64,000 nucleotides of DNA from Natronomonas moolapensis 8.8.11 (GTDB lineage Archaea > Halobacteriota > Halobacteria > Halobacteriales > Haloarculaceae): positions 2,604,001-2,668,000 of the forward strand of contig NC_020388.1 in the NCBI RefSeq assembly GCF_000591055.1. The letters are read 5' to 3'. The first letter of the stretch is position 1; each line of letters begins with the position of its first letter. Position numbers and translations under genes: made by a program. The notes under the pieces were generated by a model. That model worked only from the letters and a program-made list of their open reading frames with translations. It was not told the origin of the DNA and did no database searches. Shown one piece after another: positions 24,827-32,327 of this stretch.

Positions 24827-24840
24827 TTATGTACGATAAC

Positions 24841-26784
24841 ATGACAGACTTAGGCGGATTCCACGACCACATCGCTCGCGTTGACCTCTCCGACGGGAGC
24901 GTCGGCTACGAGAGCATCGATCAAGAGGACGCGGAGAAGTATATCGGGGCCCGCGGCCTCGGCGTCAAGTACGTCTTCGATCAGGGGCCGGAGGTCGAGC
25001 CCCTCGAGCCGGAGAACCTCCTGGCGTTCATGAACGGGCCTCTCACCGGGACGCAAGTAACCATGAGTGGCCGGATCGCCGTCTGTACGAAATCGCCGCT
25101 GACCGGCACCGTCACCGACTCCCACCACGGCGGCTGGTCCGGTGCGCGGCTCAAGTGGGCCGGCTTCGACGGCCTGCTGTTCGAGGGGCAGGCCGACGAA
25201 CCGGTGTACGCCGTCGTCGAGGACGGCGAGGTCGAGCTCCGGGACGCCTCCCACCTGTGGGGGGAGGGCTTCCACGACACCCGCGACGCCATCGAGGAGG
25301 AAGTCGAGGGCTCCTACGGCAAGAACCTCTCCGTGATGGGCATCGGCGAGGCCGGTGAAAACGAGGTGCGGTACGCCTGTATCATGAACGAGGACGACCG
25401 CGCCTCGGGCCGTGGCGGAACCGGCTGCGTGATGGGATCGAAGAACCTCAAGGCGGTCGTCGTCAAGGCCAGGACCGACATGCCGAAGCCGGCCGACTCG
25501 GATACGTTCCGGAAGGGCCACAAGCAGGCGATGGAGCTCATTCAGGAGTCCGACGTGACCGCTCCCAACGAGGGCGGCCTCTCGATGTACGGGACGAACG
25601 TCCTGATGAACGCCACCGAGGAGATGTCGGGACTGCCGACTAATAACGGTCGCTACACGTCGACCGGTGACGCCCGCGACGGCGGATTCCGGACCGACGA
25701 TACGAACTTCGACGCCGAGGCGGTCTCCGGGGAGAACGTTCGCGAGAACATCCTCGTCGACGAGCCGACGTGTCACTCCTGTCCGGTCGCCTGCAAGAAG
25801 GAAGTCGAGGTCGACGTGATGCACAAAGGCGAGGAGATGAACGTCCGCACCGAGTCCTTCGAGTACGAGTCGGCGTGGGCGCTCGGTCCGAACTCCGGAC
25901 ACACCGACCGCGACGAGATCGCGCTCATGCTCCAGCGGTGTAACGACCACGGTCTGGACACCATCGAGGCCGGCAACATGCTTGCGATGGGCATGGAGAT
26001 GACCGAGGAGGGCAAATTCGACGACCTCGACGAAGGCATCGACTGGGGTGACTCCGAGGAGATGGTCGAGATGCTCTCGAAGATTGCCACCCGCGAGACG
26101 GACCTCGCGGACCTGCTGGCTGAGGGGCCGCGCCGGGTCGCCGACCGCATGGACGCCCACGACAACAAACTCTCGGTGAAAGGCCAGACCATTGCGGCCT
26201 ACGATCCCCGCTGCATGAAGGGGATGGGCATCGCCTTCGCGACCTCGAACCGCGGGGCGTGTCACCTGCGCGGTTACACGCCCGCGGCGGAGATTCTCGG
26301 CATCCCCGAGAAAGTCGACCCCGTCGAGTGGGAGGGCAAAGGCGAACTGACGGCGACGTTCCAGGACCTCCACGCCATCTCCGATAGCTTCGACATCTGC
26401 AAGTTCAACGCCTTCGCGGAGGGCATCGAGGAGTACGTCCTCCAGTACAACGGCATGACGGGCCGCGATGTCACGGAGGAGGAGCTGATGGAAGCTGGTG
26501 AGCGCATCTACGCGCTCGAGCGCTACTACAACAACCTCTGTGGATTCGACGGCGCTGACGACGACCTGCCGAACCGGTTCGTCGAGGGCGACAACGCGAT
26601 GCCCGGCCAGGGCGGCGTCGAGGGCAGCCTCGTCGAACTCGAGAAGATGAAAGACGAGTACTACGAGGTCCGCGGCTGGGTCGACGGCGTCATCCCGGAC
26701 GAGAAACTCGACGAACTCGACATCGACGTCGGGCCGGGAACGGGCGTCTCCACGGGCGGATCGGCCGCCCCCGCGGACGACTGA
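24841..26784 (+). CDS. Aldehyde ferredoxin oxidoreductase (tungsten enzyme)
   Basis: The protein is 647 residues from the chosen ATG at 24841 (four more if 24829 is used). It is a canonical AOR: GARGLGVKYVFD, SGRGGTGCVMGSKNLKAVV (19 residues) and the cluster motif CHSCPVACK near residue 311, with the fourth ligand in FDICKFNAF near 518. It oxidises aldehydes to carboxylates with ferredoxin as acceptor and contains tungstopterin in known homologues. The C-terminal tail is Gly/Ser/Ala-rich. A poly-T run follows the stop. With the shorter AOR, VOC and cupin genes it makes a metal-enzyme island. Confidence 0.95.
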   Translation: MTDLGGFHDHIARVDLSDGSVGYESIDQEDAEKYIGARGLGVKYVFDQGPEVEPLEPENLLAFMNGPLTGTQVTMSGRIAVCTKSPLTGTVTDSHHGGWSGARLKWAGFDGLLFEGQADEPVYAVVEDGEVELRDASHLWGEGFHDTRDAIEEEVEGSYGKNLSVMGIGEAGENEVRYACIMNEDDRASGRGGTGCVMGSKNLKAVVVKARTDMPKPADSDTFRKGHKQAMELIQESDVTAPNEGGLSMYGTNVLMNATEEMSGLPTNNGRYTSTGDARDGGFRTDDTNFDAEAVSGENVRENILVDEPTCHSCPVACKKEVEVDVMHKGEEMNVRTESFEYESAWALGPNSGHTDRDEIALMLQRCNDHGLDTIEAGNMLAMGMEMTEEGKFDDLDEGIDWGDSEEMVEMLSKIATRETDLADLLAEGPRRVADRMDAHDNKLSVKGQTIAAYDPRCMKGMGIAFATSNRGACHLRGYTPAAEILGIPEKVDPVEWEGKGELTATFQDLHAISDSFDICKFNAFAEGIEEYVLQYNGMTGRDVTEEELMEAGERIYALERYYNNLCGFDGADDDLPNRFVEGDNAMPGQGGVEGSLVELEKMKDEYYEVRGWVDGVIPDEKLDELDIDVGPGTGVSTGGSAAPADD

Positions 26785-30367: not shown

Positions 30368-30655
30368 TCACCGGCGACAGCCGCCGCTCACCGGCGGGAA
30401 CAGCGCGAGGTCGTCGCCGGCCTCGAGGACGGTGTCGAACCCCTCGCCGTCGGTGAGGGGATCGCGCTCGTTGTACAGGAGGCGGATGTGGTCCTCGAGT
30501 TCGCCGTCGTCGTCGAGAACGATCGCTTCGAGGCTGGGATGGTCCCGGAGCAACTGCTCGAAGGCGTCCCCGAGCGTATCGCCCGCGCCCGCATCGACAT
30601 CGACGCGCTTCGAGCCGGCGGCCTCGGCGAGGTTCGCGAAGAGTCGCCATTCCAT
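30368..30655 (-). CDS. MoaD/ThiS ubiquitin-like small modifier (SAMP1-like) with C-terminal CRR extension
   Basis: The 95-residue beta-grasp protein closely resembles Haloferax SAMP1: start MEWRLFANLAEAAGSK, central DDDGELEDHIRLLYN and the end ALFPPVSGG. In SAMP1 and MoaD the chain stops after the two Gly, whose carboxylate is adenylated by the E1-like UbaA. Here the Gly91-Gly92 pair is followed by Cys93-Arg94-Arg95 and then the stop at 30368-30370. The modifier would need trimming, for example by a JAMM-type protease, before it could conjugate or carry sulfur. Sulfur transfer for molybdopterin and protein sampylation are the family roles. It is divergent from tgtA, with a 178-base gap. Confidence 0.88.
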   Translation of the reverse strand: MEWRLFANLAEAAGSKRVDVDAGAGDTLGDAFEQLLRDHPSLEAIVLDDDGELEDHIRLLYNERDPLTDGEGFDTVLEAGDDLALFPPVSGGCRR

Positions 30656-30833
30656 GCCCGATCTGGGCGAGCGGGCGTCTTAGGCGTTTGGTCCGCCCCC
30701 GGACGCTTTCAGGCCCGATCCGAATCGGGGTCTCACCGTCCGGCCGCGCCTGGATGCACACAGCCCCGTCCGTGGCCGGTGGCGGGCGATGGGTTCCAAT
30801 CGGCTTATCCCTCCCGGTGCCGTCGCTCCGGCA

Positions 30834-32327
30834 ATGCGCGAGTGCTTCGAGATCCGGGACACCGACGGGGCCGGACGGATCGGCGAGTTGTCCGTCCCCC
30901 GTGCGGGCGTGACCGTCGAGACGCCGGCGCTGATGCCGGTGATCAATCCGCACCTCCGGACCGTCGACCCCGCGGCGCTGGAGTCCGACTTCGGCGCGGA
31001 GATCCTCATCACCAACGGCTACATCCTTTATCAAAGCGAGGAGTTCCGCGAACGGGCGCTAAACGAGGGGCTGGCCGATCTCTACGACTTCTCGGGGGCA
31101 ATCGTGACCGATTCGGGCTCGTTTCAGCTCTCGGAGTACGGCGAGATATCGGTGACGAACGCCGAGATCCTCGAGTTCCAACGCGACGTCGGTGCGGACG
31201 TCGGGACGCCGATCGATATCCCGACGCCGCCGGACGCGGGCCGCGAGCGGGCCGAGGACGAACTCGAGACGACCAAAGCCCGACTCGAGGCCGCCGAGTC
31301 CGTCGATGTCGGCGAGATGCTCCTCAACGCGCCGATCCAGGGGTCGACGTACCCCGATCTCCGGGCGTCCGCCGCCGCCCACGCCTACGGCACCGACCTC
31401 GACGTGTTCCCAGTCGGTGCCGTCGTCCCCCTGATGAACGGCTATCGCTACGCCGAGATGATCGAGGTCGTCCGGGCGGCCAAGGGCGGCCTCGGGGCCG
31501 ACGCGCCCGTCCACCTCTTCGGGGCCGGCCACCCGATGATGTTCGCGCTGGCGGCCGCGGCCGGTTGCGACCTGTTCGATTCGGCGGCCTACGCGCTGTA
31601 CGCCCGCGATGGCCGGTACCTGACCGTCTCGGGGACGGACCACCTCGACGACCTCGAGTACTTCCCGTGTTCGTGCCCGGTCTGTGCCGATCACACGCCC
31701 GCGGAACTCCGCTCCGTGTCCGAAACGCAGCGCGAGACGCTGCTCGCCCGCCACAACCTCCACGTCAGCTACCGCGAACTCCGGACGGTCAAGCAGGCGA
31801 TCCGGGAGGGGAGTCTCTTCGAGTTGCTCGAGCGCCGGGCTCGGAGCCACCCCGCAATGGTCGACGGCTACCGCGAACTGCTCGACGACGCCGCGGCGCT
31901 CGAACGGTCCGACCCGGTCTCGAAGTCGGCGTTCTTTCATCTCTCGGCCGATTCGGCCCGCCGCCCCGAGGTCGAAAGACACCACGACCGCCTCGGGCGG
32001 CTGTCCGTCGACGGCGACCGGGTGTTGCTCTCGGCGGGCGGAGACAACAGCCGCTTCGACGAAACCTGGCGGCTCCGGGCACCGTTCGGGCCGGTCCCAC
32101 CCGCGCTCTCGGATACGTACCCGCTGACGGCCGAGCGCCCCGAGCGCCTCGGGCGGGCGGGCTACGAGGCGGCCGCCGAAGGCGTCGGACGGCTGGCCGC
32201 GGCGAACCCGGACACCGAATTCGCCATCGCCCACTGGGGGTGGCCGGACTCGGCACTCGGCCGGCTTCCGGAAAGCGTCGAGACGCTGTTGCTCGGCCCG
32301 GAGAGCGAGTACTCCGAGGGCGCCTGA
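30834..32327 (+). CDS. tgtA: tRNA-guanine(15) transglycosylase (archaeosine synthesis)
   Basis: The 497-residue enzyme exchanges G15 in the tRNA D-loop for preQ0, the first step in archaeosine formation. Catalytic features are visible: [14 protein letters not shown] with the nucleophile-region Asp near residue 87, [15 protein letters not shown] in the binding region, and the zinc site CSCPVC at about 279-284. After about residue 330 the short C-terminal part matches the haloarchaeal split form, in which the PUA-containing half is a separate protein (ArcS). The ATG at 30834 lies about 28 bases behind GCTTATCC. Homologues of similar length exist in all haloarchaea. Confidence 0.95.

Follow-up and report, generated by a model that had tools for sequence, protein, structure and literature searches.

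In eukaryotes, the precursors of ubiquitin, SUMO, and Nedd8 carry short and variable tails past an invariant Gly-Gly, which are removed before E1 activation by processing enzymes that are cysteine proteases. Bacterial sulfur carriers of the QbsE/PdtH type, which are encoded in siderophore operons together with a linked protease, also have residues past the Gly-Gly, including a Cys, and a JAMM-like protein takes these off before the carrier is thiocarboxylated. Archaeal ubiquitin-like precursors with residues past the Gly-Gly that are cut by JAMM enzymes have been described in Caldiarchaeum subterraneum, in which the JAMM protein (CsJAMM) cleaves the organism's own SAMP precursors and Rpn11 (CsRpn11) cleaves its ubiquitin precursor, CsUb (PMC6043591).

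In the haloarchaea, SAMP1 has usually been described as ready for activation as encoded, and the SAMP1 of Haloferax volcanii (HVO_2619) is indeed encoded ending in Gly-Gly. HvJAMM1 cleaves an engineered linear SAMP1-MoaE fusion in vivo and in vitro after the C-terminal Gly of SAMP1, and the masses of the products are those of free SAMP1 and MoaE. Deletion of the GG abolishes the cleavage, and the fusion restores DMSO respiration only in the presence of jamm1 (PMC4443979).

A SAMP1 with a natural extension is encoded in Natronomonas moolapensis 8.8.11, in a 64,000-nucleotide stretch of DNA (the window; contig NC_020388.1, positions 2,604,001 to 2,668,000). The samp1 ORF is located on the minus strand at 30368–30655 and encodes a protein of 95 aa, MEWRLF...ALFPPVSGGCRR*, with an ATG start and a TGA stop; the full translation is MEWRLFANLAEAAGSKRVDVDAGAGDTLGDAFEQLLRDHPSLEAIVLDDDGELEDHIRLLYNERDPLTDGEGFDTVLEAGDDLALFPPVSGGCRR. 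The beta-grasp body of SAMP1, residues 1–90 ending in FPPVS, occupies 30386–30655 (minus strand); it matches the HvSAMP1 structure over its full length as well as the Pfam family ThiS. It is followed on the same strand by the Gly91-Gly92 codons GGC GGC (30380–30385), which form the activation motif and the presumed cleavage point, by the tail codons TGT CGC CGG for Cys-Arg-Arg (30371–30379), and by the TGA stop codon (30368–30370). The protein thus ends in FPPVSGG and a further Cys-Arg-Arg, as the preliminary description of this DNA had stated. Beside samp1 and divergent from it starts a tRNA-guanine transglycosylase-like gene (30789–32327, plus strand), and an aldehyde ferredoxin oxidoreductase-like gene, which would encode a pterin-cofactor enzyme, is located 3.6 kb away (24829–26784, plus strand); both have been named by sequence appearance.

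The 95-aa protein matches the NCBIfam SAMP1 model NF041918 at 110 bits (cut-off 60). Residues 1–92 span the whole model, and CRR falls outside of it. NF041918 matches SAMP3-type proteins too, and the SAMP1 orthology rests on the structure matches and on the separate assignment of SAMP3. By these matches, the window gene is a SAMP1 orthologue and not a SAMP3, because the Haloferax SAMP1 structures (2l83, 3po0, and 4hro) match its product at 82–84 bits, compared with just 42 bits for SAMP3 (2m19). The other full-length SAMP homologue of the genome is SAMP3 (G000:C1:2837966-2838241, minus strand), which ends in FPPVAGG-stop and matches 2m19 at 104 bits.

The N. moolapensis genome also encodes an orthologue of HvJAMM1 (locus L066, G000:C1:357984-358331, minus strand). 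It matches the desampylase model NF041370 at 165.5 bits (cut-off 130) and has an intact HSHP...S..D motif, HSHPRGPLEPSATD. A second, JAMM2-like protein scores 18.6 bits with this model and is not classed by it as a desampylase. UbaA/ThiF-type and MoaE genes are present as well. The system therefore resembles that of H. volcanii in its FPPVSGG modifier, its JAMM1, and its UbaA and MoaE partners, and differs in having a natural rather than an engineered extension. Two features of a JAMM-processed precursor are found, namely residues after an intact Gly-Gly and a JAMM protease with an intact motif in the genome. JAMM1 and samp1 are unlinked on the chromosome, unlike the QbsE/PdtH carriers and their proteases.

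A sequencing error is a very unlikely source of the CRR tail, because the genome was assembled into a single complete contig and an RR tail that can be aligned with CRR is present in the nearest relative among the genomes compared; the recurrence of tails in many independent assemblies also led us to reject an assembly error. In this relative, Natronomonas sp. LN261 (84% identical), the gene ends in GGC GGC CGC CGG TAG, and a further relative ends in GG-RRR, again with an alignable tail (loci L003 and L004). The preliminary description had proposed that the tail would be a local mutation or an artefact if orthologues of sister strains had a stop codon where the Cys codon stands. The nearest relatives are instead tailed, while GG is the encoded end in four congeners that are more distant. 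It had also asked whether CRR is conserved in relatives; the Cys is not, and the tails are RR, RRR, and others.

Across the genus, SAMP1 is tailed in 16 of 20 species and ends in GG in the other four, and the FPPVSGG motif is kept in all 20. The tails are CRR, RR, RRR, AR, GR, SRK, KVQ, CGAG, CEAG, DGGVAQRPV, SSVAQRPV, and SGVSQTLV. In the Natronomonas clade, an encoded Gly-Gly end is therefore no defining feature of the SAMP1 protein as judged from the orthologues, because it is lacking not only in the window SAMP1 (...SGGCRR-stop) but also in 15 other species whose proteins are otherwise clear orthologues.

Outside Natronomonas, the family mostly ends in GG, yet tails recur. Tailed SAMP1 has been found in at least 73 of 391 sampled Halobacteria, in 19 genera, with tails mostly of 1–9 residues; the count of 73 is a minimum, as tails whose first codon starts with T were listed for part of the class alone. 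In a genus of another family (g48), the tails follow the pattern GG-S[GDA][RPQ][RQ]. In genus g26, 34 of 50 species are tailed, 29 of them with four-residue tails (AVGR, SVGR, SAGR, etc.). The tails of genus g57 have 1–5 residues, those of g88 are ER and EQ, and single cases occur in other genera. On this comparison, the tailed SAMP1 is a common feature and no local oddity of one strain.

The length of the tails is not what the loss of a stop codon would give. A hypothetical stop loss in 48 GG-ending orthologues adds nine residues or fewer in only four of them, yet 80 of the 84 distinct tailed sequences have tails that short, and random read-through was rejected on this basis. A few long tails exist, such as that of G194 in genus g48. 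In this genome (locus L248), the SAMP1 stop of the sister species has been lost (TGA to TCA), and more than 100 codons are read on through the convergent neighbour. The composition of the tails also bears on the suggestion in the preliminary description that the Cys has chemistry of its own. A Cys after the GG is sporadic, being the first residue in 5 of the 84 distinct tails, and Ser, Ala, or Arg stands at the first position of most tails; a special role of the Cys was therefore rejected. Pro is not found as the first residue in any of the 84.

Tail-sequence conservation was tested in g26. The variation is greatest at third codon positions, but non-coding positions farther downstream vary in the same way, and no clear coding constraint on the g26 tails was found. 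Downstream of samp1 in this genus (L173–L222), there is a conserved element, GATCGGTCGTTTCAAACG, which lies at a fixed short distance past most tailed samp1 stops and farther from the stop in most GG-ending genes. This element may serve the next gene as a promoter or as an operator.

The distribution of the tails was compared with that of JAMM1, which was scored in each of the 391 Halobacteria from the strongest E-value for PF14464. The values are bimodal: those up to about 3e-15 were taken as JAMM1, and those of 4e-13 or weaker as other JAMM proteins alone. By this measure, JAMM1 is present in 293 genomes and missing in 98. Completely enumerated tails, i.e., those whose first codon starts with A, C, or G, are found in 49 of the 293 genomes with JAMM1 and in none of the 98 without it (Fisher 2e-7, with genomes that are not independent). 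By genus, tails occur in 16 of 68 with JAMM1 and in 0 of 18 without it (p = 0.015). All other known tails of the 391-genome sample are also in JAMM1 genomes. Within genus g59, G419 has JAMM1 and the tail ARPDTDA, and G221, in which JAMM1 is absent, ends in GG.

On a SAMP1 tree, 17 tail gains were inferred, all of them on branches with JAMM1; the p of 2.5e-4 overstates the case because the tree has 92 columns and the GG-ending genomes were chosen non-randomly. An independent-pairs test gave too few informative pairs for significance, and its average direction was never against JAMM1 dependence. One apparent exception, the Natronomonas genome G018 (tail RRR, from outside the 391-genome sample), shows no JAMM1, although its assembly reaches just 82% completeness. 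Whole genera that lack JAMM1 (g2, g3, g8, g10, g43, and others) keep a GG-ending SAMP1 and another JAMM protein. The dependence of the tails on JAMM1 is thus supported by correlation.

Based on these observations, we propose that SAMP1 is synthesised with a short tail and that JAMM1 then exposes Gly92 by cutting the tail off, a reading that we regard as probable. The preliminary description had already offered maturation by a JAMM-type protease as one possibility, and it is the best reading of the data, backed by the cleavage of the fusion by HvJAMM1 (PMC4443979) and by the joint distribution of tails and JAMM1. In N. moolapensis, JAMM1 would hydrolyse the peptide bond after Gly92 post-translationally and remove Cys-Arg-Arg, as we infer. 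UbaA would then adenylate the freed SAMP1, which would carry sulfur to MoaE and modify proteins. Given the cleavages by HvJAMM1 and the Caldiarchaeum JAMM, JAMM1 is an existing enzyme with the potential to remove any short tail. Since JAMM1 as a desampylase already cuts Gly-Gly-X bonds, the position of the stop codon would be only loosely constrained in lineages that keep it, and short tails could appear and be altered again and again; after the loss of JAMM1, a lineage would have to place the stop codon directly behind Gly-Gly. The proposed protease is a JAMM metalloprotease, unlike the processing enzymes of the eukaryotic precursors. Caldiarchaeum is a distant lineage with one 9-residue extension on CsUb, whereas the tails of the Halobacteria are recurrent, variable, and sporadically absent.

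The tail could instead be removed by general carboxypeptidases or other proteases, with the tails being neutral and short since the Gly-Gly is a natural stopping point. Tails that are variable and mostly of 1–9 residues are expected if they are easily nibbled, but general proteolysis leaves unexplained both the absence of tails in all 98 JAMM1-lacking genomes and the need for HvJAMM1 in vivo in the case of SAMP1-MoaE (PMC4443979), and we consider it unlikely. It is less likely still that the tail itself is selected, i.e., that a basic tail, often with a terminal Arg, postpones activation or serves as a recognition feature for the processing enzyme and thereby puts the SAMP1 supply under the control of maturation. 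The absence of Pro at the first position and the terminal Arg of 31 of the 34 g26 tails (codons CGA, CGG, and CGC) and of many tails in g1, g48, and g57 agree with selection. However, in the sequence that follows GG-ending orthologues, Arg likewise stands just ahead of the first stop more often than any other residue (21 of 106, ~20%), and as a tail motif it is suggestive only. In addition, the g26 tails adjoin the conserved DNA element, so that it may be the DNA sequence that is conserved, and tails are freely lost and changed.

The preliminary description had also considered that a mutated stop codon might have made SAMP1 non-functional, and a covered Gly-Gly indeed cannot be adenylated, as is established for the SAMP1 family. 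This explanation is very improbable in view of the tails in 16 of 20 congeners, including an alignable one in the nearest relative, the intact FPPVSGG motif, and the presence of the UbaA, MoaE, and JAMM1 genes. Furthermore, the Nei-Gojobori dN/dS between the window samp1 and eight other SAMP1 genes is 0.17–0.42, a range by which the SAMP1 body is under purifying selection; a pseudogene was rejected on the basis of the motif conservation and the dN/dS. Equally hard to credit is a retained tail on a SAMP1 that works without Gly-Gly chemistry, with SAMP3 or SAMP2 taking over. The SAMP3 of N. moolapensis does end in a free GG, but the Gly-Gly is invariant in tailed SAMP1s, and SAMP3 is itself tailed in g26. 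As for the precursor cleaved by JAMM1, a more far-reaching form of this proposal holds that SAMP maturation in haloarchaea is obligatory and labile, with tails gained about 17 times and solely in JAMM1 lineages, and with some short Arg-ending tails selected to time activation. This extended form is offered as a doubtful, tentative one.

In most of genus g26 (L223–L242), SAMP3 is encoded with 1–3 residues after the GG, mostly because its stop overlaps the start of the next gene (ATGA). In three genomes of this genus, G019 (L092), G280 (L236), and G281 (L239), SAMP3 and that gene form a single in-frame fusion, and the product of the downstream gene has a weak DUF1952 match. The downstream part of the fusion ends in ...KAMRAGG, giving a SAMP3-GG-linker-...AMRAGG polyprotein. 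The architecture is already known, because the G019 fusion aligns lengthwise with the Thermus MoaD-related protein 1v8c. The SAMP3 tails and fusions fit the idea that residues past the SAMP Gly-Gly may be tolerated. No relative was found in viral contigs.

The principle of a JAMM-cut precursor is already known from Caldiarchaeum, and its repeated natural occurrence in the SAMP1 of haloarchaea seems to be unreported in the literature searched, in which few subscription papers were covered and no description of natural tails on haloarchaeal SAMP1 was found. If about one fifth or more of the haloarchaeal species make such a precursor, JAMM1 would be both a desampylase and the enzyme that makes SAMP1 usable, much like the deubiquitinases that act on ubiquitin precursors. 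In that case, the tailed species would need JAMM1 for molybdenum cofactor synthesis and for sampylation, and the other species could do without it for both.
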